Shown here one piece after another: positions 14,726 to 30,275 of a stretch of DNA of 64,000 bases (position 1 is its first letter; every line of letters begins with the position of its first letter). The position numbers were made by a program, and so were the translations under genes. Origin of the DNA: Mucilaginibacter roseus (GTDB lineage: Bacteria; Bacteroidota; Bacteroidia; Sphingobacteriales; Sphingobacteriaceae); NCBI RefSeq assembly GCF_021215455.1, contig NZ_JAJPWV010000001.1:248001-312000 (forward strand). The letters run 5' to 3'. The notes under the pieces were generated by a model. It was not told where the DNA came from, did not search any database, and worked only from the letters and a program-made list of their open reading frames with translations.

Positions 14726-14915
14726 AGCCTAAAGGTGATCGGTGTATCTGCAAAACTAACATAAATGCATGGCAATGCGGTTTGTATAATGTATAAAAAA
14801 AGTAAACACAAGTCCGGTTCCGTCATGGCAATATCAAATGCACTAAGCCGCCGGATAAGGTTAACACATGGTACGATAAATGTTGTTACCAGTACAAAAA
14901 TAAATACAACTAAAC

Positions 14916-15761
14916 ATGACAAACGAAACAACAAGCCTGACCTATAACTTGGGCGGCGATCTGCAAATTAACCGTTTAGGTTATGGCGCAATGCAATTAA
15001 CCGGTAACGGTGTATTTGGCGAGGTAGCTGATAGGGATAATGCTATTAAAGTACTACAATCAGCAGTTGAGCAAGGCGTTAATTTTATTGATACAGCAGA
15101 TGCTTACGGTCCGCACTATAACGAAAGCCTCATAGCTGATGCCCTGCATCCGTACAAGCAAGGTTTGGTGATTGCTACAAAAGGTGGCTTTAACCGCCCG
15201 GGGCCTAACAATTGGGTGCCAAACGGTAAGCCGGAATTTATTGCTGAAAATATCGAGGGCAGTTTAAAACGCTTGAAAGTTGACACGATAGACCTTTGGC
15301 AGTTACACCGGATTGACCCAAAAGTGCCGGTTGAAGAAACGCTTGCACCTGTGGTTGATGCCGTAAAGGCAGGCAAAATTAAGCATGTAGGCTTATCTGA
15401 GGTGGGCATAGCTGATATTGAGCGTGTGCAAAAGGTATTGCCAATAGTATCTGTACAAAACCTGTATAACCTCGGCGAACGTAAGTGGGAAGATGTGTTG
15501 GATTACACCACGCAGAACAACCTTGCCTTTATCCCGTGGTATCCGCTGGCTTCTGGTCCGCACACATTGGCCGAAAAGATTGAAAAGATAGCCGCAAAAT
15601 ACGAAGCAACAACTGCACAGGTTGCGCTGGCATGGCTGCTTAAACGTGCCGATAATATTTTGCTTATACCCGGCACTAAATCAGTAAGCCATCTTACTGA
15701 AAATTTAAAAGCTGCACACATTGAGCTAACCGAAGAAGAGTTTGAGCAATTGTCGGCATAA
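14916..15761 (+). CDS. Aldo/keto reductase
   Basis: A 281-residue NADPH-dependent oxidoreductase of the AKR superfamily with a TIM-barrel fold. It has LGYGAMQLTG-type strand 1 (RLGYGAMQL), the NFIDTADAYGPHYNE motif with the catalytic Asp and Tyr, and VIATKGGF with the catalytic Lys. It also has IDLWQLHRIDPKVPVEETL with the catalytic His, and the C-terminal cofactor loop IPGTKSVSHLTENL. The substrate is unknown; members closest in pattern act on small aldehydes or sugar-derived carbonyls. It is monocistronic, followed by a terminator, and divergent from the DAC-like gene across 190 bp. Confidence 0.95.
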   Translation: MTNETTSLTYNLGGDLQINRLGYGAMQLTGNGVFGEVADRDNAIKVLQSAVEQGVNFIDTADAYGPHYNESLIADALHPYKQGLVIATKGGFNRPGPNNWVPNGKPEFIAENIEGSLKRLKVDTIDLWQLHRIDPKVPVEETLAPVVDAVKAGKIKHVGLSEVGIADIERVQKVLPIVSVQNLYNLGERKWEDVLDYTTQNNLAFIPWYPLASGPHTLAEKIEKIAAKYEATTAQVALAWLLKRADNILLIPGTKSVSHLTENLKAAHIELTEEEFEQLSA

Positions 15762-15783
15762 GCTGTTTAGCGATATACTATAA

Positions 15784-15812
15784 CGAGGCGCACTCAACCG
15801 GTGCGCCTTTGT
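15784..15812 (+). terminator. Intrinsic terminator after the aldo/keto reductase gene
   Basis: Perfect 8-bp stem AGGCGCAC (15786-15793) with GTGCGCCT (15801-15808), then TTGTTGTT. Confidence 0.8.
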
Positions 15813-15854
15813 TGTTACAAACTTTTTTTGGGTGCTAATTGTGTTTTATAACTT

Positions 15855-16601
15855 ATGCGAATAAATACAATAGCACTTTGCCTGGCGCTGATGCCGCTAT
15901 TATACACGGGTAAAGCCCTGGCCCAGTTTACCGACAGTACGCACTACCGTGTTAATTATACTTCCTCAGGCTCCATCAATAAAACGGGCGATGGCACCGC
16001 GTACCTGCTTAACAATAGTGCCGGCATAGGTATAAAAAAGAAAGCTATATCGCTAAATTTTAGTAACGCATGGATATACGGCCGACAGCGGGACGCGCTG
16101 ACTAATAATGATTTTTCAACCGCTTTAGATTTTAATTTGTATAAAACCTTTCCGCACTTTTTTTATTGGGGATTGGCTAATTATAATACCAGTTATTCCC
16201 TGAAGATAAATAATCAATTACTTGCAGGCGTAGGTATTGCGTATAACATTGTTGACAAGCCGAACGCCTGGCTTAACTTAAGCAATGGTATTTTATATGA
16301 TAAAAGTGACCTGATGCTAAATGATACTACGCGGGAGGATTATCATACCTACCGAAACTCGCTCAGGCTTGCATTTAAGTTTACAATCAATAAGTTAATT
16401 GTGCTGGAGAGTAGCAGCTTTTTGCAGAATTCATTCAATAATGGCGACGACTATATCATCCGATCTAACAGCTCGTTATCGTTCAAAGTGAACAAATGGC
16501 TGGCATTAACAACAGCGCTCAGCTATAACCGCCAAAACCGTACAAAGAGTGAAAATTTGCTGTTTACTTATGGGTTGACACTTGAAAGGTACTTTAAATA
16601 A
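15855..16601 (+). CDS. DUF481-like outer-membrane beta-barrel protein
   Basis: A 248-residue exported protein with a Sec signal peptide (about residues 1-23, ending KALAQ). The rest alternates hydrophobic and polar residues in beta-strand fashion and ends in YGLTLERYFK, a barrel-type terminal strand with aromatic residues. The pattern (KKKAISLNFSNAWIYGRQRD, YWGLANYNTSYSLKINNQLLAGVGIAYNI) is typical of DUF481/YdiY-like proteins. It could form a small pore or a structural barrel. It sits just upstream of the SusCD locus but is separated by 479 bp, so co-transcription is unlikely. Confidence 0.7.
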   Translation: MRINTIALCLALMPLLYTGKALAQFTDSTHYRVNYTSSGSINKTGDGTAYLLNNSAGIGIKKKAISLNFSNAWIYGRQRDALTNNDFSTALDFNLYKTFPHFFYWGLANYNTSYSLKINNQLLAGVGIAYNIVDKPNAWLNLSNGILYDKSDLMLNDTTREDYHTYRNSLRLAFKFTINKLIVLESSSFLQNSFNNGDDYIIRSNSSLSFKVNKWLALTTALSYNRQNRTKSENLLFTYGLTLERYFK

Positions 16602-17080
16602 TTTAACACAAAAAGTCCATTTCTGCGCAGAAAACGCATTAAATGTCAAAAAAACATTACATCAAAAATTGCTCAAAACAGTGTTTTTTATGCCTCAATA
16701 ATGGCTGCAATCTGTACTGGAATAAAGCGTATCAAAATTTAAAATTTAAAGCGTCTTATTTTACGTTTTACACTGATAATAAGCATACATAGCTAATGCT
16801 TTACTTGTTATTGAAGCGTTTCAAAATCATCATAAACAACTAAAAATCAGTTATTTATGAAAAAATTATTTGTTTTTTTATTCAACTCTTCGATAAATTT
16901 GAACCGTTAAGCGTTGCGAAAAACCAATTATACAACGCCTGCCATTTAACTTTTATAAACCAATTATGATGTGCACTCAATTGTACCTGCGGCTTGCCTA
17001 TGGCTAATGCGCCAAACTTTTAAATGCATCAGTTTTGATGCCAGCTTATTCCAAATCCAACAATTATTAACTAATCATCC
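16602..17080. promoter_or_regulatory. Intergenic control region upstream of the SusCD locus
   Basis: 479 bases without a plausible gene. It is AT-rich and carries one good promoter at 16869-16901. The remaining leader of about 170 bases before susC is long for this genome and could hold RNA-level control, but I found no known riboswitch. Confidence 0.5.
16869..16901 (+). promoter_or_regulatory. Bacteroidota-type promoter of the SusCD glucan locus
   Basis: TTTG (16869-16872), a 21-base spacer, then TAAATTTG (16894-16901). This matches both parts of the Bacteroidota consensus (TTTG at -33, TAnnTTTG at -7) at nearly the usual spacing. The predicted start is near 16906. Confidence 0.65.
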
Positions 17081-20000
17081 ATGAGAAAAAAACTTACTTT
17101 TTTATTATTCCTGCTTATTGCCGGAGTTACAGCAGCCATGGCCCAAAACGCTACCGTTAGGGGTAAGGTGGTTGATCAGAATTCGCAGCCGTTGCCCGGC
17201 GTATCGGTAACCGTTAAAGGTACACAAACAGGCACGCTTACTGATGTGGGCGGTAATTACACCTTAAGCGCTGCGCCCAACGCAACACTTATATTTTCAT
17301 ACATAGGTTATGACACACAGGAGATCAGCGTATCATCTCGCTCTGAACTAAATGTTACCTTAACCGAAGGCGTTAGAAGCCTGAACGAAGTAGTAGTGGT
17401 AGGTTACGGTACGCAAAAGAAAAGCGTAGTAACCGGCGCAATTGCCCATGTAAGCGGCCGCGACCTTGAAAACCAGCAGGTAACCCGTTTTGACCAGGCT
17501 TTACAAGGCCGTACTTCCGGCGTTGTAGTAGTAGCCGGCTCGGGTGCACCAAACGCAGCGCCTATTATTCGTGTACGCGGTATTACTTCAATCAATAATT
17601 CAAACCCGCTTTACGTTATTGATGGTATTATAAGCCAGAACGGTGGTCTTGAGAACTTAAATCCAAATGATATAGAGTCAATAGAGGTGCTGAAGGATGC
17701 ATCTGCTGCTATTTACGGTTCGCGTTCATCAAACGGTGTAGTATTAGTAACCACAAAAAAGGGTAAAAGTGGTGCACCGCAATTGTCATACAATGGCTAT
17801 TTCGGTACACAAAAAGCTACCAAACAATTTGATGTGGTAAACGCTACGCAATACGCTACCTTGCGTAACCAGGCTGTTACCAATGATGGCGGTACTGCGC
17901 CATTTGCCAACCCGGCACAATTTGGCGAGGGAACTAACTGGCAGGACATTGTGTTAGGTGAAAGTGCTGCAATACAAAACCATAACCTCTCAATTCAGGG
18001 CGGTACAGAGTTAAACAAATACTATTTGTCCTTCGGATATTTAAATCAGCAGGGTATTGTTTTCTCTGATATATCAAACTTTAAAAAGTATAACTTTACC
18101 GCTAACACGAGCTTTCAGCCAAAAAAATGGTTAAATATTGGTCAAACCTTCGGTTATACTTATACTCGTAATCAGAGTAACTTCAGCACTAATAATGAAT
18201 TTGGTGGCCCGTTAAGTTCATCGCTTAACCTGGATCCAATCACGCCGATACTTGCGGCTCAGGAAGACCTGAACAGTTCACCATACACAGACAAACCGGT
18301 TGTGCGTGATGCCCAAGGCAGGCCTTATGCAATATCAAAATATGTAGGGCAGGAGATGAGCAACCCATTGGCTTACCTGGAAACTCAACGTGGAAACTAC
18401 GGATGGTCTCACAACTTATTGGGTAACGTGTTTGTTGAAATTCAACCAATCAGAGGGTTGAAAATTAAATCGCAGATTAACGGTAAGCAAGCGTTTTGGG
18501 GCAGCCAATCATACACGCCGCTTTATTACTTAACTACCCAAAACAACAATACTACTAACCGCAGTGCTTTCAGAGGCAGTAACCGCAACTTGACCTGGAA
18601 CTGGGAGAATACCATTTCATACAATCGCCAGGTAGGTTTACATGATTTTACCGGCCTTATTGGTACCAGCGCGCAAGGACAAAATGAGGTGGGTTTAAAT
18701 GCTACTTTCAATAACATCCCGGTTGACGATTACCGCAAACTATCTTTCAATTACGCATTGCCTAACGAAAATCGTATCGGTGGTGCCTATGATAATCAGC
18801 CTTATCATTTAACCTCACTATTTGGCCGTTTAAATTATAGTTACGATGAAAAATACTTGTTTACAGGTATTATTCGTCGCGATGGTTCATCAAAATTTGG
18901 CTCAAACTACGTTTATGGTACTTTCCCTTCCGCACAGGTTGGTTGGGTTGCCTCGCGTGAAAATTTCTTTCCAAAAAATTCTTTTGTTGACTTCCTGAAA
19001 CTACGCGCTTCATATGGCGAGGTCGGTAATGAACTTTCGCTCGACTTCTTCCAATACACATCAGTGGTTGGCGGTGGCCGTAACGCGGTATTTGGGCCAG
19101 GTGGTCTGGTAATTGGTAACGCACCATTGGGTCCGGAGAATCGGAATTTACGTTGGGAAGCAACAAAGACTGCAGATATCGGTATTGACGCGGTTTTATT
19201 TAAAAACGTAAACTTGACTATTGATGTATACCGTAAACTTACCTCAGGTATGCTTCAAAGCTTCCGCTTACCAGGTTATGCAGGGTTCGACGGTGACTTT
19301 TTTGACAACATCGGCGATCTGGAAAACAAGGGTGTTGAGGTAGAACTGGGTTATAATGGTAATTCAGGCGATTTTAAATATAACTTAAGCGGTAACATCG
19401 CTTATAACAAAAACGAAGTTACCTTCCTGGGTTCAAGGCCGTTTATTGATGGTGGATCGTTCCAGGCTTCAAGTTATCCATTGTTCCGTACGCAAACCGG
19501 CCAACCGGTTGCATCTTTCTATGGTTTCCAGGAGTTAGGGACATTCAAATCTCAGGCCGAGATTGACGCTTATACCCGCAACGGTACCAAAATTCAACCA
19601 AACGCAAAACCCGGCGATTTTAAATGGGCTGATAACAATGGCAACGGTGTTATTGACGAAGGCGACCGTACATTCTTAGGTAACCAATTGCCAAAATGGA
19701 CTTATGGTGTAAATCTGCGTGCCAATTACAAAGACTTTGACTTCTTGTTATTTGGTCAGGGCGCATGGGGCAACAAATTGTTCCAGGGCTATCGCAGGTT
19801 AGATATAGCCACAGCCAATTACTCAAGTGCTGCACTTGACGCGTGGACGCCTCAAAACTCAGATAGCAACTATCCGCGTTTAAGCGATCTCGACCCGAAT
19901 AACAACTTCAAAAACCCATCTAACTTCTATCTGCAAAGCGGCGCTTACTTCCGTATTAAAACGTTGCAGTTTGGCTACACTTTACCGGCATCAATACTGA

Positions 20001-20161
20001 ATAAGATTGATGTTAAAAGGGCAAGGATATTTGTTAGCAGCAACAACCTGGTTACCATTACCAAGTATGATGGTTTTGACCCGGAAATTGCAGGCAGTGT
20101 TGACCGCGGTATCTATCCTCAGGCGCGCACCTTTATGGTTGGTTTAGATTTTACACTATAA
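17081..20161 (+). CDS. SusC/RagA-family TonB-dependent outer-membrane transporter
   Basis: A 1026-residue outer-membrane transporter for oligosaccharides. It has a signal peptide (about 1-21, ending AAMA) and then a CarboxypepD_reg-like domain (about 23-100: VRGKVVDQNSQPLPGVSVTV, YIGYDTQEISV). A TonB box follows at about 104-115 (EVVVVGYGTQKK), then the plug (about 118-230: IRVRGITSINNSNPLYVIDG, IEVLKDASAAIYGSRSSNGV), and a C-terminal 22-strand barrel ending in ARTFMVGLDFTL. There is no N-terminal STN signalling domain. It pairs with the SusD 21 bases downstream and probably imports beta-glucan oligosaccharides. Confidence 0.97.
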   Translation: MRKKLTFLLFLLIAGVTAAMAQNATVRGKVVDQNSQPLPGVSVTVKGTQTGTLTDVGGNYTLSAAPNATLIFSYIGYDTQEISVSSRSELNVTLTEGVRSLNEVVVVGYGTQKKSVVTGAIAHVSGRDLENQQVTRFDQALQGRTSGVVVVAGSGAPNAAPIIRVRGITSINNSNPLYVIDGIISQNGGLENLNPNDIESIEVLKDASAAIYGSRSSNGVVLVTTKKGKSGAPQLSYNGYFGTQKATKQFDVVNATQYATLRNQAVTNDGGTAPFANPAQFGEGTNWQDIVLGESAAIQNHNLSIQGGTELNKYYLSFGYLNQQGIVFSDISNFKKYNFTANTSFQPKKWLNIGQTFGYTYTRNQSNFSTNNEFGGPLSSSLNLDPITPILAAQEDLNSSPYTDKPVVRDAQGRPYAISKYVGQEMSNPLAYLETQRGNYGWSHNLLGNVFVEIQPIRGLKIKSQINGKQAFWGSQSYTPLYYLTTQNNNTTNRSAFRGSNRNLTWNWENTISYNRQVGLHDFTGLIGTSAQGQNEVGLNATFNNIPVDDYRKLSFNYALPNENRIGGAYDNQPYHLTSLFGRLNYSYDEKYLFTGIIRRDGSSKFGSNYVYGTFPSAQVGWVASRENFFPKNSFVDFLKLRASYGEVGNELSLDFFQYTSVVGGGRNAVFGPGGLVIGNAPLGPENRNLRWEATKTADIGIDAVLFKNVNLTIDVYRKLTSGMLQSFRLPGYAGFDGDFFDNIGDLENKGVEVELGYNGNSGDFKYNLSGNIAYNKNEVTFLGSRPFIDGGSFQASSYPLFRTQTGQPVASFYGFQELGTFKSQAEIDAYTRNGTKIQPNAKPGDFKWADNNGNGVIDEGDRTFLGNQLPKWTYGVNLRANYKDFDFLLFGQGAWGNKLFQGYRRLDIATANYSSAALDAWTPQNSDSNYPRLSDLDPNNNFKNPSNFYLQSGAYFRIKTLQFGYTLPASILNKIDVKRARIFVSSNNLVTITKYDGFDPEIAGSVDRGIYPQARTFMVGLDFTL

Positions 20162-20182
20162 ATTGAATTCAAATTAATTGTC

Positions 20183-21697
20183 ATGAAAAGAAAATATATC
20201 ATATACGGCTCGGTAGTAATGTTGGGAATAGCCGGATTTGCATCATGTAAAAAATCATATTTAGAAACTACACCATCCGGGCAAACGCTCGAGGCAAATT
20301 ATTACAGCACGCCCGACGAAATATTTACCGGTGTAGTTGCGGCTTATGACCCATTAGTAACCGAAACAGGTGGTTTAAATAACACTTACTCGGGTCCGCT
20401 TGGCCCGCTGAATGCCGCATCAGACGATTGTGTTGCCGGTGGTGGAGGCCCAACGGATATGAACACCTGGCAAGCCTGGAATAATTACTCTTTAACTCCG
20501 GCAGTTGGTCCGCAAGGCGAATATTGGGGGCGCAACTACAGGGGTGTGAGCCGTTGCAATACTATCCTGTCAAAAATGGCACCGGCTACTTTTTTAAATG
20601 AGAACGATAAGAAGCGTTACACAGCTGAAGTGAAATTTTTGCGCGCATATTATTATTTCTGGCTTGTGCGTTTGTTTAAAAATATTCCGATGATATTGCA
20701 GCCACTTCCGCCGCAGGATGTTTATAATCAGCCACAGGCAGCACCCGAAGCAGTATACAAACAGATAGAGGATGACCTGAATGCTGCGATCCCTGATTTG
20801 CCGGTTACCGTAGCCGCGTCAGAAAATGGCCGTGTTACTAAAGGCGCGGGTATTGCGCTACTGGGCAAGGTTTATTTGTACGAGAAGAAGTGGACTGAAG
20901 CCGCCGCGCAACTTGCGCAGGTTAACGGTAGCACACCTGGCGGTACAACCGGTACTTATGGCTACAAATTGCAGAGTAACTTTGGCCAGATATTCAGCCC
21001 GGATAATAAATTCAACAGCGAATCTATATTCGAGTTGAACTTTACCGGCTCTCAAAGTTACAGCTGGAACAACTGGAACCAGTTTAAATCAAACGTTTAC
21101 GTGCAAATGGTTGGTCCGCGTGGTTATAACGGCCCTATTTATTGGGGTGGTTGGGGCTTTAGCCCGGTAACAACCGGTTTGGCTACCGCCATGAAACCCG
21201 ATCCGCGTTATGGTTATACCGTGGCTAACATTGATAGTTTGACCAAGGCAACCGGTACCCGTTATGAGCCGAGCTACCAAAACACCGGCTACTTTATACA
21301 AAAGTATGCACCGTTGCAAAAGTATAAAGCGCCAACAGGTACTGCCGAGCTTAACTTCCCGAACAATTATATCGAGATCAGGCTGGCTGATACCTACTTG
21401 ATGGAAGCTGAAGCTTTGTTACAAGGTGGTGGTAGTTCTGCACGTGCATTAGCGCTGTTAAGTGCGGTGCGCGAGCGTGTAGGCCTGGCTCCGGTAGCGG
21501 CAACCTTGCAAAATGTTTATAATGAGCGCCGTTTAGAACTGGCTACCGAAGGTCACCGCTGGTTTGACCTGGTGCGTACCGGGCAGGCGCCAACTGTACT
21601 GGCAAGCAAAGGCTTTAAAGCAGGTACCCACGAAATTTTGCCAATTCCGTTACAGGATATGCAGAATACCCAACTTAAGCAAAATCCAGGTTATTAA
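20183..21697 (+). CDS. SusD/RagB-family glycan-binding lipoprotein
   Basis: A 504-residue surface lipoprotein that forms the lid of the SusC transporter. The signal peptide ends in a lipobox (GFASCKK, Cys at about 22). The TPR-containing core includes YRGVSRCNTILSKM, FLRAYYYFWLVRLFKNIPM, and KGAGIALLGKVYLYEKKWTEA. The C-terminus has the family-typical NERRLELATEGHRWFDLVRTGQA and LPIPLQDMQNT. The length is normal. It is followed by a strong hairpin before the GH16 gene, which may uncouple susCD expression from the enzymes. Confidence 0.97.
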   Translation: MKRKYIIYGSVVMLGIAGFASCKKSYLETTPSGQTLEANYYSTPDEIFTGVVAAYDPLVTETGGLNNTYSGPLGPLNAASDDCVAGGGGPTDMNTWQAWNNYSLTPAVGPQGEYWGRNYRGVSRCNTILSKMAPATFLNENDKKRYTAEVKFLRAYYYFWLVRLFKNIPMILQPLPPQDVYNQPQAAPEAVYKQIEDDLNAAIPDLPVTVAASENGRVTKGAGIALLGKVYLYEKKWTEAAAQLAQVNGSTPGGTTGTYGYKLQSNFGQIFSPDNKFNSESIFELNFTGSQSYSWNNWNQFKSNVYVQMVGPRGYNGPIYWGGWGFSPVTTGLATAMKPDPRYGYTVANIDSLTKATGTRYEPSYQNTGYFIQKYAPLQKYKAPTGTAELNFPNNYIEIRLADTYLMEAEALLQGGGSSARALALLSAVRERVGLAPVAATLQNVYNERRLELATEGHRWFDLVRTGQAPTVLASKGFKAGTHEILPIPLQDMQNTQLKQNPGY

Positions 21698-21720
21698 TTA
21701 ATAAACACACATGTTGTTGT

Positions 21721-21747
21721 ATGAACCGCCCGCGAGGGGCGGTTCAT
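21721..21747 (+). other. Strong hairpin between susD and the GH16 gene
   Basis: A perfect 11-bp stem, ATGAACCGCCC (21721-21731) with GGGCGGTTCAT (21737-21747) and a 5-base loop. No T tract follows, so it may be an mRNA stabiliser, processing site or partial attenuator, and not a full terminator. Confidence 0.6.
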
Positions 21748-21767
21748 AATTTAATTGAATTACAAGT

Positions 21768-22628
21768 ATGATAAAAATTAATACTACCATATTACTTTGT
21801 GCAGTTACGGGTTTGGTGCTGATTGCCTGCGGTAGCAAAAAAAGCGATCCGGCACCTAATATTGGGCCGGTTAAAACAGAGCCACCTACCGATAAGGGTT
21901 GGGCATTTGAAACCACCCCATCCTTTGCAGATGAGTTTGACACCGACGGAAAGCCAAGCGATGCCAAATGGATGTATGATACCGGCGGCAGCGGTTGGGG
22001 TAACAACGAGCTGCAATATTATACCGATACGGAAAATAACGCGTCAATAAAAAACGGCATACTTACCATAACGGCAAAGAAAGAAGCTATGCAGGGCATG
22101 AATTACACTTCATCGCGTATGGTATCAAAGTTTGAGCACAGCATTACCTATGGTAGGGTTGAGGTTCGTGCCAAGTTACCTGCCGGCCGTGGTACCTGGC
22201 CAGCCATATGGATGCTGCCCGATGATTATAAATATGGCAGCTGGCCAAAATCAGGCGAGATTGATATAATGGAACATGTAGGTTACGATCCGAATAATGT
22301 GCACTTCAGTGTCCATAATTCGGTTAATAATGCCGGTAATTCAAAAACATCGGGCCGGATGATTGAAACGGCGCTAACAGATTATCATAAATACCGGGTA
22401 GACTGGACTCCTTATGCTATACGTGGTTATTATGATGATGTGTTGGTATTCACTTTTGTAAATGAGGGCAAAGGCTCATCAACCTGGCCGTTCGATCAAA
22501 AGTTTCACCTGTTGCTTAACGTAGCCGTTGGCGGTAACTGGGGCGGCGTACAGGGAGTTGACGATACTGTTTTCCCGGCAAGTATGCAGGTTGATTATGT
22601 AAGATTCTACAAAATGATAGATAAATAG
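21768..22628 (+). CDS. GH16 beta-glucanase (laminarinase-type) lipoprotein
   Basis: A 286-residue glycoside hydrolase family 16 enzyme. The signal peptide ends in LIACGSKKS, with Cys as the lipidation site, so it is probably anchored to the outer membrane. The catalytic signature GEIDIMEHVG at about residues 163-172 gives the nucleophile Glu, assisting Asp and acid/base Glu of the E-x-D-x-x-E type. Other family landmarks are WMYDTGGSGWGNNELQYYT near the start, GRGTWPAIWMLP, and FHLLLNVAVGGNWGG. The family and locus suggest endo-beta-1,3-glucanase action that makes oligosaccharides for SusCD. Confidence 0.93.
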   Translation: MIKINTTILLCAVTGLVLIACGSKKSDPAPNIGPVKTEPPTDKGWAFETTPSFADEFDTDGKPSDAKWMYDTGGSGWGNNELQYYTDTENNASIKNGILTITAKKEAMQGMNYTSSRMVSKFEHSITYGRVEVRAKLPAGRGTWPAIWMLPDDYKYGSWPKSGEIDIMEHVGYDPNNVHFSVHNSVNNAGNSKTSGRMIETALTDYHKYRVDWTPYAIRGYYDDVLVFTFVNEGKGSSTWPFDQKFHLLLNVAVGGNWGGVQGVDDTVFPASMQVDYVRFYKMIDK

Positions 22629-22753
22629 ACGGCCGCACCACCGCATAATATTTCAATATAAGTATCATCAAAAGTCATCTTGTTAAAGCCCTTAAGCTGT
22701 AACAATGGCCACCATTATGCCCTTAAAATCCATTTGCCTGATAAATAACCCCT

Positions 22754-24211
22754 ATGAAAAAAAAAATTACACGCTCAATTTATGCTACACTGTTTCTGGC
22801 TGGTTTAGCCGGAAGTTGCAGCAAATCGGGTACGTCAAAGCCTGATCCGGTTGATCCGGTTGTTCCTCCACCAATTACACCCGTAAAAACTGATGTGGAA
22901 CTTTGGCTCACCAAGGGCGACAAAACATCGCTCTTTGCCAAACAAAATGTAGCCATTGCATTTAAGCAGGAAACTAACAATAATGCCACTATCGAAGTAG
23001 ACAGCACCCAAACCTATCAAAGTGTGGATGGCTTTGGCTTCGCGCTTACGGGCGGCAGTGCTATGCTGATTAATCAACTTAACGCTACGGACAAAACAGC
23101 CCTCATTCAGGAACTTTTTGGCACTGACGGCGGTGGCATTGGCATCAGTTACCTGCGGGTAACGTTGGGCGCGTCTGACCTAAGCGCGGTACCTTTTACT
23201 TACGATGAAATTACCACGGGTATAAGCGATACTGAACTAAAGCAGTTCAGCATCGATATGGAAAAAAAGGACTTGATACCGGTATTGAAAATGATACTGG
23301 CGGTTAATCCGAATATAAAGATATTGGCCAGCCCATGGACAGCCCCAACCTGGATGAAAGATAACCAGGGTTACTATGGTGGCAGTCTCAAAAAGGAATA
23401 TTACGGCGTTTACGCGCAATACTTTGTAAAATACATTAACGCCATGAAGGCTGAGGGTATTACCATTGATGCCATTACCCCGCAAAACGAGCCGTTGAAT
23501 GCTTACAATAACCCGAGCATGTTCATGTCATCGGCCGACCAAAAAATATTTGTGCGCGATAACCTGGGCCCTGCTTTTGAGTCGGCAGGCCTAAATACTA
23601 AAATACTGATCTATGATCATAATCTCGATCATCCGGAATATGCTACCGATATTTTAAGAGATGCCGCCGCGGCTAAGTATATTGATGGTTCGGCATTTCA
23701 TCTGTATGGCGGTAACATCAGTGCCATGAGTGCGGTGCATGATGCTGCACCAAACAAGAATGTTTACTTTACTGAGCAGGCCACCTTTGGTAACGGTAGT
23801 TTTGATGGCGACCTGAAATGGCACACCAGCAATCTCATCATTGGTGCTATGCGCAACTGGAGCCGCAATGTAATAGAATGGAACCTGGCGTCTGACCCTA
23901 AGTTCGATCCGCATACCGTTGGCGGCTGCGATGCCTGCCAGGGAGCTATTACGGTGGGTACATCGGTGTCGCGCAACGTATCATACTACATCGTGGCGCA
24001 TGCATCAAAATTCGTCAGACCAGGCTCGGTGCGTATTGGCTCAACCTCTGTTAATGATCTGCAAAGCGTTGCCTACAAAACGCCTTCAGGTAAAAAGGTA
24101 CTTATTGTGCTTAATAATACCGGCAGCACGCTCACATTTAACATTAGGTATAACAATAAGCTGGCTGCCAGTACGCTTGCAGGTGGCGCGGTAGGCACTT
24201 ATCTCTGGTAA
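22754..24211 (+). CDS. GH30 glycoside hydrolase lipoprotein
   Basis: A 485-residue secreted enzyme of family GH30 (clan A TIM barrel plus side beta-domain). The signal peptide has a lipobox (AGSCSKSG). Catalytic residues are visible in TPQNEPLNAYN (acid/base Glu, about residue 250) and VYFTEQATFG (nucleophile Glu, about 341). The core starts with QTYQSVDGFGFALTGGSAM, a GH30 landmark. Sequence style resembles GH30_3 beta-1,6-glucanases, which would suit removal of beta-1,6 branches, but the subfamily call is tentative. It is a distant paralogue of the next gene. Confidence 0.9.
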   Translation: MKKKITRSIYATLFLAGLAGSCSKSGTSKPDPVDPVVPPPITPVKTDVELWLTKGDKTSLFAKQNVAIAFKQETNNNATIEVDSTQTYQSVDGFGFALTGGSAMLINQLNATDKTALIQELFGTDGGGIGISYLRVTLGASDLSAVPFTYDEITTGISDTELKQFSIDMEKKDLIPVLKMILAVNPNIKILASPWTAPTWMKDNQGYYGGSLKKEYYGVYAQYFVKYINAMKAEGITIDAITPQNEPLNAYNNPSMFMSSADQKIFVRDNLGPAFESAGLNTKILIYDHNLDHPEYATDILRDAAAAKYIDGSAFHLYGGNISAMSAVHDAAPNKNVYFTEQATFGNGSFDGDLKWHTSNLIIGAMRNWSRNVIEWNLASDPKFDPHTVGGCDACQGAITVGTSVSRNVSYYIVAHASKFVRPGSVRIGSTSVNDLQSVAYKTPSGKKVLIVLNNTGSTLTFNIRYNNKLAASTLAGGAVGTYLW

Positions 24212-24252
24212 ATAAATAAAAAAGCTATTCAGGTTTACAAAACATATACTAC

Positions 24253-25695
24253 ATGCATAAGATACACAAATTAGCCGCCGTATTGCTGATATCGCAGCAG
24301 TTATGGCAGCAGGCTTTGGCGCAAACGGCGGCATCCCCGGTCGCAGGTAAAACAGTAAAAGTTTATACTACAGCCAAGGACACCAAACTTCGCCTTTCTG
24401 AAACAGAAACGCTGAATTTTACCCCAAACGCTCAGCCATTTGAAACGGAGGCCTGCATATTCGTCGATCCGGGTAAAACGTTCCAGTCTGTACTGGGTAT
24501 AGGGGCAGCCCTCACCGATGCCTCCGCTGAAACTTTTTACAAGTTGCCCAAAGACAAGCAGCAGCAATTGTTAACCGATTTTTACGACACTGAAAAAGGC
24601 ATTGGCTATACCATCGGCAGAACGCATATTCAAAGCTGTGACTTTTCGAGCGGTAGCTATACTTATGTTAAGGAAGGTGATGCCGAGCTTAAAACCTTTA
24701 GCATCCAACACGATAAAAAATACCGTATTCCTTTCATTAAGCAGGCTATCGCGGCAGCAGGCGGTAAATTAACCATGTATGTAAGTCCGTGGAGCCCGCC
24801 CGCTTTTATGAAGGATAACAACAGCATGCTGCAAGGCGGTAAGCTCAAAGCGGAATTTTATCAGCCCTGGGCAAATATGTATGTAAAATTCATTAACGCT
24901 TACGAGAAAGAAGGCATCCCGGTGTGGGGCTTATCGGTACAAAACGAGCCTATGGCCAAGCAAACCTGGGAGTCTTGCATATACACGGCCGAAGAGGAAC
25001 GCGACTTTGTAAAGAATTTTTTAGGGCCAACACTGCATAAAAACGGCATGGCCAATAAAAACCTGATCGTTTGGGACCATAACCGCGATTTGTTGTACCA
25101 GCGTGCCAGTACCATCCTGTCTGACCCGCAAGCGGCAAAATACATTTGGGGTACCGGTTTCCATTGGTATGTGCACGATGTTTTTGAGAACGTAAAACGT
25201 GTAAAAGAAGCCTTTCCTGATAAAAACCTGATATTTACCGAGGGTTGCAGTGAACGCTACAGTAATGAGCGCATTAACGAGTGGCAATGGGGCGAAATGT
25301 ACGGCAAATCAATGGTGAACGATTTTAATAATGGTGTAGTAGGATGGACGGACTGGAATATATTTCTCGATCAAACCGGCGGCCCTAACCACGTAGGTAA
25401 CTTTTGTTACGCGCCGGTACACGCCAATACCAAAACTGCCGAGATTACGTACATGAATTCATACTATTACATTGGTCATTTCTCCAAATTTGTTAAGCCG
25501 GGCGCTAAGCGCATCATCAGTTCATCAAACAGGGATAAATTGCAGACTACGGCCTTTGTTAGTCCGGAAGGTAAGTTGGTGGTTGTAGTACTTAATTTGA
25601 GCGATGAGGAGTTGCCATACCAATTATGGATTGCAGGCAATGCCGCGAAAACCAAAAGTTTGCCGCATTCCATCACAACCCTGGTGGTGCAATAA
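24253..25695 (+). CDS. GH30 glycoside hydrolase (second copy)
   Basis: A 480-residue exported GH30 enzyme. Its Sec signal peptide ends WQQALAQ, with no lipobox, so it is probably periplasmic. The acid/base Glu lies in SVQNEPMAKQTWESC and the nucleophile in LIFTEGCSERY. ASPW/VSPW-type strands (MYVSPWSPPAFMKDNN) and the DWNIFLDQTGGPNHVGNFC segment resemble GH30_1/GH30 beta-glucosidases and glucosylceramidase relatives. Together with the lipid-anchored GH30 upstream it suggests a surface endo-enzyme plus a periplasmic exo-enzyme. The exact bond specificity cannot be read. Confidence 0.92.
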   Translation: MHKIHKLAAVLLISQQLWQQALAQTAASPVAGKTVKVYTTAKDTKLRLSETETLNFTPNAQPFETEACIFVDPGKTFQSVLGIGAALTDASAETFYKLPKDKQQQLLTDFYDTEKGIGYTIGRTHIQSCDFSSGSYTYVKEGDAELKTFSIQHDKKYRIPFIKQAIAAAGGKLTMYVSPWSPPAFMKDNNSMLQGGKLKAEFYQPWANMYVKFINAYEKEGIPVWGLSVQNEPMAKQTWESCIYTAEEERDFVKNFLGPTLHKNGMANKNLIVWDHNRDLLYQRASTILSDPQAAKYIWGTGFHWYVHDVFENVKRVKEAFPDKNLIFTEGCSERYSNERINEWQWGEMYGKSMVNDFNNGVVGWTDWNIFLDQTGGPNHVGNFCYAPVHANTKTAEITYMNSYYYIGHFSKFVKPGAKRIISSSNRDKLQTTAFVSPEGKLVVVVLNLSDEELPYQLWIAGNAAKTKSLPHSITTLVVQ

Positions 25696-25749
25696 CCGTT
25701 AAACCCATAATCATATCAACCGGTAATAAACAGTCTGTCGCAATTAACT

Positions 25750-26985
25750 ATGAGGGGTAAAAGGATCATTCTTTTTTCAGGTATATTTCTGTTGCCCCTC
25801 ATCCTGATTTTTTCGCAATGCAGCAATTTGTTTGATAAGGAAGATACTGATCCGCGTGGAAGTTTGTACGCGGGTGATAAGGCTTGCATAAAATGCCATA
25901 GCGATGTTTATAAAAGCTATTTGCATACGGCGCATTTTCAAAGTACGCGCGATGCGGCAGACAGCACCGTTCAGGGCGATTTTAGTGCGGGCCATAACAG
26001 CTTTACTTTTAACGATAACCTGAAGGTAGTGATGGAGAAGCGCAGCGGCGGCTTATATCAGGCGGGTTATGTTAATGGCAAAAAACAACAGGAGCAACGT
26101 ATGGATATTGTTTTTGGCGGTGTAAAGGCCGAAACTTATTTGTACTGGAAGGATAGCACCACTTATCAGCTACCCATATCGTATTTTAAACGCCTGCACA
26201 ACTGGACAAATAGTCCGGGTTATGATACCACCCGTATTGATTTTGGGCGAATGATTGGCAAGCGTTGCTTTGAGTGCCATAGCTCATACATCAAACAACT
26301 GCCCTCGCCTCAGCAAAGCCTGGCGTCGGTAGTGAAGTTTGATCAGGCCACGCTGATTAATGGTATTGATTGCGAACGCTGCCACGGTCCGGCGGCTAAC
26401 CACGTTAATTTTCATACCGATTATCCGGAAAAGAAAAAAGCGCGGTACATAGCCAAATATGCTTCATTGTCGAGGCAGCAAAAAATAGATATGTGCGCAT
26501 CATGCCACTCCGGCAACGGTAGTATGCCGGTGAGACCGATGTTTGCCTTTAAACCCGGCGACACGCTGGCTAATTTTTTAGAAACAGAATATTATCCAAC
26601 TGTCCGTGCCGATGCTACCCAGTTGGATGTGCATGGTAATCAAAGCCAGATGCTGGGTGCCAGCAAATGCTATGTTCAAAGTAAAATGGATTGCGGTACC
26701 TGCCACAACACCCACGTAAAAGATAGGGGCAACGTGGCCCTGTACTCGCAGCGCTGCATGAACTGCCATAAAGCCGATGGACACAATTTTTGCAAAATGG
26801 CGTCGAAAATAGGTGTTTCAATAAAAAATAATTGTGTGGACTGCCATATGCCCCAACGTCCGTCGACTATTATAGCGGTGCAATCAGCGCAGGGCAGGGC
26901 TGCCCCTTATTTTGTGCGTACGCACCGCATAGCGGTATATCCGCAGGAAGTAGAGAAAGTGTTGTCGTATTTAAATAAAAATTAA
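25750..26985 (+). CDS. Seven-heme c-type cytochrome lipoprotein
   Basis: A 411-residue exported protein. The N-terminal hydrophobic segment ends in IFSQCSNLF, compatible with a lipoprotein. Seven CxxCH heme-attachment motifs are present (CIKCH, CFECH, CERCH, CASCH, CGTCH, CMNCH, CVDCH), together with extra His residues for axial ligation. This resembles the cytochrome c554 and multiheme cytochromes used in periplasmic electron transfer. Its placement between GH30 and GH5 genes, with normal short spacing (54 and 50 bp), is unexpected. Possible roles are electron delivery to an oxidative glycan enzyme or a respiratory oxidoreductase, but none is in the window. Confidence 0.9.
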   Translation: MRGKRIILFSGIFLLPLILIFSQCSNLFDKEDTDPRGSLYAGDKACIKCHSDVYKSYLHTAHFQSTRDAADSTVQGDFSAGHNSFTFNDNLKVVMEKRSGGLYQAGYVNGKKQQEQRMDIVFGGVKAETYLYWKDSTTYQLPISYFKRLHNWTNSPGYDTTRIDFGRMIGKRCFECHSSYIKQLPSPQQSLASVVKFDQATLINGIDCERCHGPAANHVNFHTDYPEKKKARYIAKYASLSRQQKIDMCASCHSGNGSMPVRPMFAFKPGDTLANFLETEYYPTVRADATQLDVHGNQSQMLGASKCYVQSKMDCGTCHNTHVKDRGNVALYSQRCMNCHKADGHNFCKMASKIGVSIKNNCVDCHMPQRPSTIIAVQSAQGRAAPYFVRTHRIAVYPQEVEKVLSYLNKN

Positions 26986-27035
26986 AATCCGGATAAAAAT
27001 TTTACATATTTAAGCACCAATTAGCTACCTTATTT

Positions 27036-28265
27036 ATGAAGAAACTATTACCAATTTTGGCCATTGTAATGGCGTCATTTTCTGTAAGCTCATATGCACA
27101 GGGTAAATTTATTTCTGTTAAAGGCAAAGAGATCATAGGTGCCGATGGCAAGCCATTTTTGATACGAGGTACTAACCTGGGTAACTGGCTGGTGCCCGAG
27201 GGGTACATGTTCAAGCTCAAGGGCATCAACTCACCTAAACTGATTAACCAGGCTTTTGCAGAGATCATCGGTCCGGATGATATGCGTGTTTTCTGGAAAC
27301 AGTTTTTAGATACCTACATTACCGCCGAGGATATTCATTACCTGAAATCCACGGGGATGAACTCCATCCGCATACCGTTTAACTATAAGCTGTTTACCAA
27401 TGAGGATTACATGGGCGATAACGACGCTACCCGTGGCTTCAAGTACCTGGATAAAGTAATTGCCTGGTGCAAAAAGGAAAACTTATACGTAATACTTGAT
27501 ATGCACTGTGCCCCCGGCGGCCAAACCGGCGATAATATTGACGATGGCTATGGTTACCCCTTCCTGTTTGAAAGCAGGCCGAGCCAACTGCTAACAATCA
27601 AAATTTGGAAACAGATAGCAGATCATTATAAAAATGAAAGCATTATTTTGGGGTATGATTTGCTGAACGAGCCTATCGCCCATTATTTTAAGGTTGACAG
27701 CCTGAACCCTTACCTGGAACCCCTGTATAAAGAAATTACCCAGGCAGTACGCACGGTTGACAAGAACCATCTGATATTTTTAGGCGGTGCGCAGTGGGAC
27801 AGCAACTTTAAACCATTCGGGCAGCCGTTTGATAGTAAACTGGTATACACTTTTCATAAATACTGGACGCCGGCTACTATCGACGTTATTAAAGATTACA
27901 TTGATTTCAGGGATAAATACAATGTGCCTATCTACGTTGGCGAAACCGGCGAGAATACTGATGAGTGGGTGCGCGACTTCCGCATTCTGCTGGAGAAAAA
28001 TAACATTGGCTGGCATTACTGGCCTTACAAAAAAATGGATAATGAGCGCGGTTTCCGCACGTTCGCGCAGCCTGAAGGTTATGATAAGGTGTTTGATTAT
28101 ACCGAGAAGAACCGCCAGACCTTTGAAGATATCCGTAAAGCCACACCCGAAGATCGCAAGAAATTAAAGGAAGTGCTTTTTAAGGTATTGGAGAATAGCA
28201 AGTTTGTGAACACTAAGCCCAACAAAGGTTACATTGAGGCTTTAGGACTTACCGCAGGCCAATAG
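27036..28265 (+). CDS. GH5 glycoside hydrolase (exo-glucanase/cellulase family)
   Basis: A 409-residue exported enzyme (signal peptide about 1-22, ending SSYAQ). The GH5 TIM barrel shows RGTNLGNWLVPEGYMFK near residue 45, SIRIPFNYKLF, YVILDMHCAPGGQTGDN, LLNEPIAHYF (acid/base Glu), TFHKYWTP, and VYVGETGENTDEW (nucleophile Glu). The first motif is like that of GH5 exo-beta-1,3-glucanases. As the last enzyme of the locus it probably trims glucan oligosaccharides in the periplasm. A good terminator follows, so the locus ends here. Confidence 0.93.
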   Translation: MKKLLPILAIVMASFSVSSYAQGKFISVKGKEIIGADGKPFLIRGTNLGNWLVPEGYMFKLKGINSPKLINQAFAEIIGPDDMRVFWKQFLDTYITAEDIHYLKSTGMNSIRIPFNYKLFTNEDYMGDNDATRGFKYLDKVIAWCKKENLYVILDMHCAPGGQTGDNIDDGYGYPFLFESRPSQLLTIKIWKQIADHYKNESIILGYDLLNEPIAHYFKVDSLNPYLEPLYKEITQAVRTVDKNHLIFLGGAQWDSNFKPFGQPFDSKLVYTFHKYWTPATIDVIKDYIDFRDKYNVPIYVGETGENTDEWVRDFRILLEKNNIGWHYWPYKKMDNERGFRTFAQPEGYDKVFDYTEKNRQTFEDIRKATPEDRKKLKEVLFKVLENSKFVNTKPNKGYIEALGLTAGQ

Positions 28266-28367: not shown

Positions 28368-30275
28368 ATGCCGAAAACTTTGATAAAGAGTTTATTCTTT
28401 ATTGCGTTTTTAATGCCGTTTTGCCTGCGCGTTTCGGCCCAGGTGCCGCTGCTGTTAAATGACGAGGAAAACCAAAGGTTTTTTACTTTTAATGAGATAC
28501 AAGCACTGCCCGACTCAACCGCTTTGCTCACGTTTGGGCAGGTGCTGAGCAAACAATACACACAAAAATTCAGGCCGAGCGAATTATCCTCCCCCAAAAC
28601 GGGTGAATCGGGCTGGGCTTACTGGTACCGCATTCGCATCAGTAATACAAACAACACCCGCAAAAACTGGCTGCTGGAATTTATGGATCAAACCATTGAC
28701 AGCATCACGGTATACTCACCGCGCAAGGAGGGTGGCTATACAAAAACCTCGTTTGGCGCGGCCTACCATTTTGACGAGCGGCTGTATCACCATAAAAACT
28801 TTACGCACAACATTAGCAGCGACCTGCATGGTACACAAACCTATTACATTCGTATTGTATCGCACCAGCCGGTAAACGTTATTGTGGTGCTGCGTTCGGT
28901 AAGCTGGTTTATTCATTACGCGCTGGATGAGTACCTGTTTTTCGGCGCGTTTTACGGTATGCTTACTGTATTCGGGTTATATAACCTGATGATGTTTTTC
29001 GCCATCAGGCAAAAACAGTACCTGTATTATGTAATGTATAATGTGAGCATCGGCTTTTACGAAATGTGTACCGATGGTATTGCCTACCAGTACGTATGGC
29101 CTAATTCCCCGCACTGGAACCAATATGCTTACGGCATTGCCCTATACTTCGCCAGCGTGTCAGGTATGTTATTCACCCTGAGCCTGCTGCATGTAAAGGC
29201 CCGCGCACCGCAGATGTACAAAATATTTGTTTGGGCGATAGCGCTGCGCTCGGTTTTCTTTTTGTGTTGTTTGCTGATCGATAAAAGCTGGTTCAACTAT
29301 AAGATCATCGAGATCGTTCCGCTGCTGCTGGCTTGCTATACCGGCTTTTATGTAATGCGTAAGGGTTACTGGCCTGCGCGCTTTTTTGTAGTGGGCTACA
29401 GCTTCCTGTTCGTTGGTTTCATCATCAAAATACTTATTGCACTTGATGTTCCATGGCTTCCATTTGGGCCGGTTACACATTACAGTTTAAGCTTTTGCTT
29501 TATTATGGAGATGCTGTTCATCTCTTTCGCTATCGCGGAAAAGGTTCGCGCCTTGAAAAAGAAGAAAGATTACGTGCAGCGCCGCATTATCAGGCAGATG
29601 AAGCAGAATGAGGAACTGAAGGACAATATCAACCGCCAGTTAGAGCACCAGGTACAGGAACGCACGCGCGAACTATCTGTAAAATCAGAAGTGATAGAGC
29701 AGCAGAACGATGAACTAAAGGCCATGAACCTGCTGCTGAAAGAGCAATCCGAAGAAATATCGCGCATAAACGTGCTGCTCGAAAAGGATAACATCACCCT
29801 GCATAATGATATTGAAAAGGTAACGCATGACAGGGTAATGTCTGCCGAGGTGGATTTTGAAGAGTTCAGCCGCATTTACCCCGACCGCGAAACCTGCTTC
29901 GGTTTTTTAGCCAAGCTGAAGTGGGAGAGAGGATACGCTTGTCGCCGCTGCGAACATACCCATTACAGCGGCGGGCACTTGCCGTACAGCAGGCGTTGCT
30001 CGAAATGTGGTTATGAGGAATCTGTTATCGCATACACCATTCTGCAAAACACCCGCATACCTATCAACAAGGCTTTTTACATGATATTTTTGATGTACTC
30101 TACCAAAGGCAAAATATCATCGCACAAACTATCTGAAGTGCTGGACATAAGGCAGAGCACCTGCTGGGCCTATAGTTCGCGCATAAAAAAGGTGATGGAA
30201 ACAAAAAAGAAGGAACTGCGTAACGCCGGCCACAAAGGCTGGAGCAAGTTGGTAATTGATGTGGATGATGATTAA
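28368..30275 (+). CDS. 7TM-DISM receptor fused to an IS1595-type transposase zinc ribbon and HTH
   Basis: A 635-residue membrane protein. Residues 1-25 are a signal peptide. About 27-175 form a 7TMR-DISMED2-like periplasmic carbohydrate-binding-type domain, about 185-395 the seven helices of a 7TMR-DISM domain, and 395-490 a coiled coil. Normally a histidine kinase or cyclase follows. Instead 497-612 match the N-terminal part of IS1595 (ISXO2-like) transposases: FGFLAKLKWERGYACRRCEH, a four-Cys zinc ribbon (C525, C528, C544, C547), and the YSTKGKISSHKLSEVLDI helix-turn-helix segment. The DDE nuclease is absent. The likely role is a membrane-bound DNA-contacting regulator, possibly of the adjacent glucan locus (inference). 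Confidence 0.85.
   Translation: MPKTLIKSLFFIAFLMPFCLRVSAQVPLLLNDEENQRFFTFNEIQALPDSTALLTFGQVLSKQYTQKFRPSELSSPKTGESGWAYWYRIRISNTNNTRKNWLLEFMDQTIDSITVYSPRKEGGYTKTSFGAAYHFDERLYHHKNFTHNISSDLHGTQTYYIRIVSHQPVNVIVVLRSVSWFIHYALDEYLFFGAFYGMLTVFGLYNLMMFFAIRQKQYLYYVMYNVSIGFYEMCTDGIAYQYVWPNSPHWNQYAYGIALYFASVSGMLFTLSLLHVKARAPQMYKIFVWAIALRSVFFLCCLLIDKSWFNYKIIEIVPLLLACYTGFYVMRKGYWPARFFVVGYSFLFVGFIIKILIALDVPWLPFGPVTHYSLSFCFIMEMLFISFAIAEKVRALKKKKDYVQRRIIRQMKQNEELKDNINRQLEHQVQERTRELSVKSEVIEQQNDELKAMNLLLKEQSEEISRINVLLEKDNITLHNDIEKVTHDRVMSAEVDFEEFSRIYPDRETCFGFLAKLKWERGYACRRCEHTHYSGGHLPYSRRCSKCGYEESVIAYTILQNTRIPINKAFYMIFLMYSTKGKISSHKLSEVLDIRQSTCWAYSSRIKKVMETKKKELRNAGHKGWSKLVIDVDDD

Follow-up and report, generated by a model that had tools for sequence, protein, structure and literature searches.

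A seven-helix receptor ending in an IS1595-type DNA-binding tail, a probable membrane-bound regulator of beta-glucan loci in Bacteroidota

The window analysed here, a 64,000-nucleotide stretch of a Mucilaginibacter roseus contig (NZ_JAJPWV010000001.1), encodes a receptor in which a periplasmic DISMED2 domain, seven membrane helices and a coiled coil are joined in one chain to a zinc ribbon and helix-turn-helix (HTH) of the kind found in IS1595 transposases. This fusion is, in our judgement, probably a membrane-bound one-component regulator of a beta-glucan polysaccharide utilization locus (PUL), in which a DNA-binding domain domesticated from a transposase would recognize a paired operator. 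Each of these elements is known; the combination, its spread and the operator appear new to the literature searched. Open full-text searches yielded no description of the fusion among the matches listed, the domain lists of the founding 7TMR-DISM paper lying outside them.

A first-pass annotation, made from the sequence without database searches, had read this open reading frame as a DISMED2 domain, seven helices and a coiled coil that end in an IS1595-type tail. The receptor half is borne out by Pfam matches of the window protein to 7TMR-DISMED2 (E 4.1e-29, 101.7 bits against a cut-off of 22) and to 7TMR-DISM_7TM (E 4e-46, 158 bits against a cut-off of 29), the latter being the only match to that family in the whole genome. 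The cytoplasmic output module present on this receptor is the IS1595-type zinc ribbon and HTH: the Pfam family Zn_ribbon_IS1595 matches at E 0.0083 and 16.5 bits, under its cut-off of 25.4, and the NCBIfam IS1595 transposase model NF033547 aligns its positions 1-58 of 215 to residues 561-617 (E 2e-7, 31.1 bits; the cut-off of 75 bits is set for the whole model). The window tail taken alone is thus sub-threshold for both. Four distant fusions scanned in the same way all contain DISMED2, 7TM and the IS1595 zinc ribbon, whose Pfam cut-off is exceeded in three (L084, 25.8 bits; L086, 31.9; L089, 39.7) and missed in the fourth (L094, 23.2). The annotation had also noted the lack of a kinase and of the transposase DDE domain, and among Pfam matches of the window protein up to E 10 there is indeed no kinase, no receiver domain and no ISXO2-like DDE domain (PF12762), the chain stopping at residue 635; nor was a kinase, receiver or DDE domain found in the four distant fusions. 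A membrane sensor and a DNA-binding-type domain, predicted to bind DNA, therefore lie in a single chain.

Structure prediction agrees with this architecture. The full-length AlphaFold model (48-sequence alignment; mean pLDDT 79.6, pTM 0.56) shows a periplasmic domain made largely of beta strands, then seven long helices from residue 178 on and a separate C-terminal domain, and the last of the seven helices, at 368-461, is continuous with the coiled coil; the tail modelled alone folds into six helices at pLDDT 90.7 and pTM 0.82. Compared with the PDB by Foldseek, the full model finds the periplasmic domain of RetS best (3jyb, E 7.6e-7; 2xbz), then WLS, a membrane protein whose function is different, and after it carbohydrate-binding modules (CBMs) and other beta-sandwich proteins. 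For the tail, Foldseek gave nothing below E 0.001 in the PDB, the weak matches being the NudC zinc ribbon and winged-helix regulators. A family name for the tail was also sought with VIA-align, whose matches are mostly HTH proteins (Lrp-like 9w4v, IstA transposase 8b4h); their Z scores, up to 4.8, are too low to give one.

The same fusion was surveyed in other genomes. When genome contigs were searched with the tail and the best 80 of 130 related loci kept, the tail proved to be encoded in one frame behind 468-524 residues in 80/80, mainly in Mucilaginibacter and Pedobacter and also in Arcticibacter, Desertivirga, Chitinophaga and Deminuibacter. Thirteen further fusions (f1 and f2 with one each, f8 with five, f9 and f66 with three each) were added, and the fusions mostly stand at SusCD/beta-glucanase loci. 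A profile of the tail matches in 39/395 genomes of a phylum sample and 154/300 of an order sample, and at a stricter limit in 24/395 of a class sample; the matches listed for the phylum and class samples comprise fusions in families f1, f2, f8, f9 and f66 (about 620-720 amino acids, aa), IS1595 transposases (about 250-370 aa) and shorter proteins (about 90-190 aa), a part of these last being broken or at contig ends. At least five Bacteroidota families thus carry the fusion. In one locus, L145 (G680:C1:3055500-3071500), the fusion gene, SusC and SusD each seem to be split in two frames, which points either to errors in the sequence or to a locus that is decaying as a whole.

Conservation is highest in the tail: across the 81 aligned sequences the commonest residue has a mean frequency of 0.84 in residues 495-560 and 0.86 in 561-620, against 0.59 in the sensor (26-187). 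The predicted zinc ligands Cys525, 528, 544 and 547 stand exactly where the annotation had put them and, with Cys599, are invariant in 81/81, a count that is biased because the loci were recovered by tail peptides, some of which span the cysteines; the CxxC...CxxC arrangement recurs in 13/13 of the further fusions, where the gene was chosen by that same pattern. Neither finding that the annotation had named as fatal to its reading, a tail without IS1595 matches or zinc-ribbon residues that vary among orthologues, is observed. A chance in-frame fusion or an assembly artefact, in whose favour there is only the sub-threshold Pfam score of the window protein, is refuted by this conservation (one frame in the 80 loci and the 13 further, over five families, and a tail dN/dS of 0.015 against L002), and we give it practically no credence.

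Conserved linkage to SusC/SusD and glycanase genes is a trait of PUL regulators, and the fusion loci display it. Neighbours were counted in a stretch reaching about 4.5 kb upstream and 6 kb downstream of the fusion gene, less at contig ends, and their clusters labelled by eye, one or two members of each being confirmed by Pfam. Over the 81 loci the clusters near the fusion include GH30 in 55, SusC in 34, SusD in 28, GH16 in 27 and GH5 in 20; immediately downstream stands SusC in 30 loci and GH30 in 22, in every case on the strand of the fusion gene. Among the 13 further fusions ten have a same-strand SusC downstream, directly in six and after one or two genes in four, followed by a SusD-labelled gene in nine (in the tenth, L140, the gene after SusC belongs to an unlabelled cluster). 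The three f66 loci have no SusC within the stretch; they have GH81 and GH16 (L137, by Pfam) or GH16 (L136 and L138, by BLAST). The names of the neighbouring glycanase families make a beta-1,3/1,6-glucan the likely substrate. In the window the genes from susC to GH5 lie upstream of the receptor gene, and Pfam matched no known transcription-regulator family in the ten genes scanned (13583-28262), the gene at 13583-14725 matching only a probable sensor domain, DACNV; the receptor gene thus sits, as had been said, just after a glucan locus that has no obvious regulator.

A repeated sequence, AAGCGTATCA, was first noticed in the gaps between fusion gene and susC. The 8-mer AGCGTATC is present within 600 bp downstream of the fusion in 52/81 loci, against 3.2 expected; 8-mers of the TATGAGAA kind have the highest ratio but occur in 17-18 loci, and were set aside as shared gene starts (ATGAGA...). 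Written as the box A[GC]CGTAT[CT][AG], the sequence is found within 900 bp downstream of the fusion in 59/81 loci (about 7 expected), at a density of 1.55 per kb compared with 0.10 elsewhere in the same loci, and with a strong bias of orientation (109 plus, 3 minus). With the pattern relaxed at one position, 60 of the 81 loci contain same-strand pairs of boxes, 64 in all, at spacings of 77-93 bp (92 bp in 17, 86-90 in 38, 77-78 in eight and 93 in one). Behind the proximal box stands a second motif, YTANNNATCA, the gap being exactly 16 bp in 48/64 pairs and 17 in one; in 15 pairs it is absent within 45 bp of the proximal box, and at 16 or 17 bp behind the distal box it occurs in 0/64. Promoter-like sequence, recognized by eye, follows the proximal element. 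Where another gene intervenes (L014, L024, L046, L064) the pair stays with the PUL gene. In L046, L047, L048 and L050 a pair also lies 5' of the fusion gene, a hint of autoregulation; in L053 and L061 one stands ahead of the gene just preceding the fusion.

In the more distant fusions the element is less uniform. A scan of the 13 further loci with a position weight matrix (PWM) gave one clear site, in L139 (f2; score 25.3); L140, of the window's own family, scored 5.5, yet boxes are visible there by eye, and the f8, f9 and f66 fusions scored 10.3 or less. By eye, f9 retains AAGCGTATA-like boxes and f66 has AAGCGCAAA or AAACGCAA plus the second half-site. The f8 loci have GCAATCGATTTCGG or GCAAACGATT-like sequences, which may be LacI-type sites, so we propose no operator for this family. 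Near the PUL start in f8 and f9, downstream of the fusion, GCAAACGTTT or GCAATCGATT-like sequences can also be made out by eye (L128, L129, L130, L132-L135); these we take as possible LacI-type sites and a hint of a second regulator in those families. Between the boxes of many Pedobacter loci lies a small palindrome-like CTGATAATCAG or CTGTATATCAG (by eye; L056 6481-6573, for example), and in the window the spacer at 16773-16783 reads CTGATAATAAG.

The pair and the fusion also occur together across genomes. The strict pair was sought in 300 genomes of the order sample, taken as the same 300 as in the tail-profile search, and a genome was counted as fusion-positive where it had a tail match below 1e-50 among the matches listed, the fusion being inferred from the score. 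The pair is present in 95/137 fusion-positive genomes as against 25/163 of the others (p 4.5e-22), and within the window's genus in 33/45 with the fusion as against 2/25 without (p 1.6e-7), p-values that are optimistic because the genomes are related; a reversed control pattern gave about 12 matches in the 300 genomes compared with 163 for the true one. Together with the linkage to SusC/SusD and beta-glucanase genes, this co-occurrence favours the view, already put forward in the annotation, that the protein is a membrane-bound transcription regulator.

In the window itself the pair lies 258-356 bp ahead of susC (17081) and 11.5 kb from the receptor gene. A degenerate form of the bipartite pattern has one match in the 4.19 Mb of the genome, at 16816-16850 before susC, although that genome contains 27 SusD matches; its reverse has none. 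The strength of this candidate operator is in the pair, its place and the second element, not in the single box. Features of the fusion, the operator and the glucan locus are collected in Table 1.

Table 1. Positions in the window of the receptor gene, its encoded domains, the candidate operator and the genes of the glucan locus.
Feature	Position	Strand	Basis
Distal box of candidate operator, AAGCGTATCA	16725..16734	+	Box search
Proximal box of candidate operator, AAGCGTTTCA, one mismatch, 89 bp from distal	16814..16823	+	Box search
Bipartite element GCGTTTCA-N16-CTAAAAATCAGTTATTTATG before susC	16816..16859	+	Pattern search
SusC-like TonB-dependent receptor, first gene behind candidate operator, predicted target	17081..20161	+	Pfam
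SusD-like protein, predicted target	20183..21697	+	Pfam
GH16 gene, predicted target	21768..22628	+	Pfam
Two GH30 genes, predicted targets	22754-24211, 24253-25695	+	Sole two GH30 matches in genome
Multihaem cytochrome c-like gene inside glucan locus	25750-26985		Cluster in 9/81 loci
GH5 gene adjoining receptor gene	27036..28265	+	Cluster in 20/81 loci
7TM receptor / IS1595-type DNA-binding domain fusion, 635 aa, ATG start	28368..30275	+	Open reading frame list, Pfam, NCBIfam, homologue comparison
Signal-peptide-like N-terminus, residues 1-25	28368..28442	+	Judged by eye on translation, no signal-peptide program
Periplasmic 7TMR-DISMED2, residues 43-175	28494..28892	+	Pfam; Foldseek best matches RetS periplasmic domain 3jyb, 2xbz
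7TMR-DISM seven-helix domain, residues 188-391	28929..29540	+	Pfam, AlphaFold
Cytoplasmic coiled-coil / signalling helix, about residues 392-494	29541..29849	+	AlphaFold helix 368-461; weak coiled-coil Pfam/NCBIfam matches
IS1595-type zinc ribbon, residues 507-549 (C525 C528 C544 C547)	29886..30014	+	Pfam, alignment, tail model
IS1595-type helix-turn-helix region, residues 561-617	30048..30218	+	NCBIfam, tail model, VIA-align

These observations would fit the following mechanism. A sugar or oligosaccharide, such as a glucan fragment, set free in the periplasm would be sensed by the CBM-like DISMED2 domain; that of NicD is said to bind carbohydrates (PMC8544897). The signal would then pass through the seven helices and a dimeric coiled coil to the zinc-ribbon/HTH domain; signalling helices are reported to connect signalling domains with HTH domains, though at low frequency (PMC1592074). 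The output domain is, by its sequence, kin to IS1595 transposases minus DDE, and the tree described below supports the view that it derives from one. Conservation of the sites, their spacing and their orientation leads us to propose that a dimer would grip the paired bipartite site ahead of the first PUL gene and activate the promoter just downstream. A phosphorelay would not be needed.

Several results weigh against this proposal. In 29/81 loci neither SusC nor GH30 is the next gene, 21/81 show no pair within the stretch examined, and 42/137 fusion-positive genomes lack the strict pair; the most diverged fusions, those of f8, have no recognised AAGCGTATCA box, and the sites of f9 and f66 are altered. 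The whole-genome pattern, written from other genomes, was loosened (W) to admit the one mismatch of the window, and the strict pair pattern misses the window pair and matches the genome at two other places (its only two strict pairs, G000:C3:821514-821609 and C3:857617-857715, both outside the window, which may be chance matches or further targets). A single-box search of the window was not significant, with 9 matches for 4.9 expected and as many in 10/100 shuffles. Finally, fusion and PUL are inherited together, so co-occurrence alone does not identify the protein that binds, and the boxes may go with the PUL and be read by some other regulator.

This last point can be turned into an alternative, that the fusion is a DNA-binding receptor with other targets and the paired boxes serve another regulator of this PUL. 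The same co-occurrence would arise if PUL and fusion were simply passed on together, and in 14 Pedobacter loci (L056, L057, L060, L062, L063, L065, L066, L068, L070, L072, L075, L076, L078, L079) genes that by eye resemble a response regulator and a histidine kinase lie directly upstream of the fusion gene. We nevertheless hold it unlikely: those genes are found in 14 of the 81 loci as against 60 with paired boxes, the window PUL gave no match to any other known regulator family, and four loci have pairs ahead of the fusion gene as well. A further difficulty for direct signalling is that in the full-length AlphaFold model pLDDT falls below 50 at 460-488, the linker to the DNA-binding part. Some membrane-bound factors act by regulated proteolysis, and this linker could be where the tail is freed to work as a soluble factor. 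That the coiled coil is modelled as continuous with helix 7 would suit direct transmission better, and no linked protease was recognised among the labelled neighbour clusters, most neighbours being unannotated; release by proteolysis seems to us, again, improbable.

What the tail derives from can be approached through its relatives. A profile built from it retrieves true IS1595 transposases, PF12762 being confirmed in L093, L096, L116, L124 and L190 and sub-threshold in L090. In a tree of 62 tails, which has no true root, 33 fusions fall on one side of one branch, with weak support (86/52) and in 88% of bootstrap trees; this branch is nested in a strongly supported group of 49, with 12 transposases and four short proteins, L116 and six copies from one genome, G162, being among these. 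That the fusions stand together inside a set that holds transposases fits domestication, as the annotation had surmised in calling the protein built from transposase parts: a single origin of the fusion is likely, and the direction from transposase to fusion is the simpler reading. The window gene is a single copy at a conserved locus, and since the DDE domain was searched for and found absent we would place the protein with the membrane-bound one-component regulators, as a variant of these, and not with the transposases.

In one more alternative the tail no longer binds DNA and acts through proteins, recruiting RNA polymerase or another factor or interfering with transposases in a dominant-negative way. 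Both zinc ribbons and HTHs are able to bind proteins, and the conserved tail is longer than its Pfam and NCBIfam matches. The zinc ligands and HTH are, on the other side, under strong constraint, conserved DNA boxes stand in the expected promoters, and at E<=0.1 the tail profile finds nothing in the window's own genome besides the fusion itself, so that no close IS1595 target is present there. We regard an output through proteins as very unlikely.

The genomes also contain other IS1595-like genes. L141 (G202:C3:178000-194000) has, from locus position 7888, a stand-alone zinc-ribbon/HTH protein of 185-189 aa without a DDE match; it follows a SusC-SusD set and adjoins a 1358-aa protein resembling the kinase cluster of the neighbour survey, and may be a soluble relative built on the same regulatory principle. 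Closely alike zinc-ribbon/HTH proteins of 154-168 aa occur in L106 and L108 (G170, G222) and in further f4 genomes, and the one scanned, that of L108, lacks a match to DDE. These may represent decayed copies or a further IS1595 product that was domesticated. G162 alone contains about ten intact-looking IS1595-like genes (L090, L122, L124-L127, L179, L183, L185-L190), diverged to 67-92% DNA identity over aligned pieces. Among the loci tested, flanking inverted repeats with at least 20 matching bases are found only at L190 and L183, so some of the genes may be domesticated.

If the domain came from a transposase, its recognition sequence may have come with it. We put forward, tentatively and as something we think less probable than not, that a 7TM sugar receptor acquired a transposase DNA-binding domain in a single fusion event and that the PUL operator descends from a site bound by the transposase in its own element; protein and operator would then have undergone domestication jointly and given rise, across Bacteroidota, to a class of glucan PUL regulators that work without a kinase. 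The operator matrix was run over free transposases and short relatives. In the highest-scoring free transposase, L116 (PF12762, 83.9 bits), a full operator-like GCGTATTG-N16-CTGTATATTAG lies 53 bp ahead of the start codon; its gap of 16 bp is that of the PUL operators, and it scores 19.9 against a maximum of 16.5 in 3 Mb of shuffled sequence. In nearly the same place L124 and L125 (G162) have CGGATTA or CCGTATTA plus CTAAAAATCAGT at a gap of 17, weaker matches (p 0.007 and 0.043, uncorrected), and by eye TAGGCG is seen 40-60 bp before the start in L116, L179, L187 and L188.

Joint domestication meets its own obstacles. For 11 of the 13 close relatives tested p is above 0.01; the ten of these besides L116, L124 and L125 (lowest p 0.017, L117) and eight distant relatives give nothing clear with the matrix. 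L104 scored 15.2 at 1.4 kb from its gene, above that scan's shuffled maximum of 13.6, which shows that real AT-rich DNA can beat the null and that the null is somewhat too kind. The element ends that could be defined lack the AAGCGTATCA box: transposon ends were tried as its source, and neither the left end of L118/L123 (ACGGATTA), the ends of the Persicobacter IS (GAGGTCGGTAGG), those of L190 (GGGGAGGGCTAATTTAATTAGTTAT) nor the inverted repeat of L120 with AATTGGGTTACCAA corresponds to it. Joint domestication of domain and site is possible on these data.

One observation on the surroundings may be recorded. A molybdate-transport-like operon, recognised by eye, flanks 24-27 loci, of Mucilaginibacter or of unassigned bins; its presence there seems to have no connection with the fusion.

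Regulated glycan loci are very numerous in Bacteroidota, and the regulators known for them include two-component hybrids, sigma/anti-sigma pairs and soluble factors. If the fusion acts as proposed, it would add a further class for the degradation of soil beta-glucan and fungal necromass, offer a 7TMR-DISM receptor whose ligands could be tested with an easy reporter output, and provide a clear bacterial case of a transposase domesticated into a sensor; the predicted operator makes the regulator reading directly testable. Like the PUL regulators of Bacteroidota, SusR among them, it would be a sensor-regulator whose gene lies beside those of SusC/SusD and glycanases. Unlike SusR, hybrid two-component systems and pairs of extracytoplasmic function (ECF) sigma and anti-sigma factors, it would lead from sugar sensor to DNA in one polypeptide with no kinase, receiver or sigma factor. 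Hybrid systems are described as Bacteroidota PUL regulators in PMC11253607, and an ECF-sigma/anti-sigma pair for the fungal-cell-wall PUL of Chitinophaga pinensis in PMC10449523.

Among receptors, the protein resembles the 7TMR-DISM members RetS and NicD in its periplasmic DISMED2 and 7TMR-DISM_7TM domains and in its match to the RetS sensor fold; it differs from them in its output, which is the zinc-ribbon/HTH, a kind of module that the papers listed in the searches do not mention, that of NicD being GGDEF (PMC8544897). With IS1595/ISXO2 transposases it shares a zinc ribbon followed by an HTH, in the same order, and a tail whose profile retrieves DDE transposases; unlike them it has no DDE, is single-copy at a conserved locus and is fused to a receptor. 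Outputs known for 7TMR-DISM receptors are histidine kinases, phosphatases and the like. ChiS of Vibrio, ToxR and CadC likewise have a sensor, a membrane anchor and a DNA-binding domain on a single polypeptide, and are unlike the window protein in that here the sensor is a seven-helix receptor and the DNA-binding domain of transposase type. Plant FHY3/FAR1 and human SETMAR are cases of a transposase domain recruited as a regulator; those are eukaryotic, whereas here such a domain forms the output of a bacterial membrane receptor.

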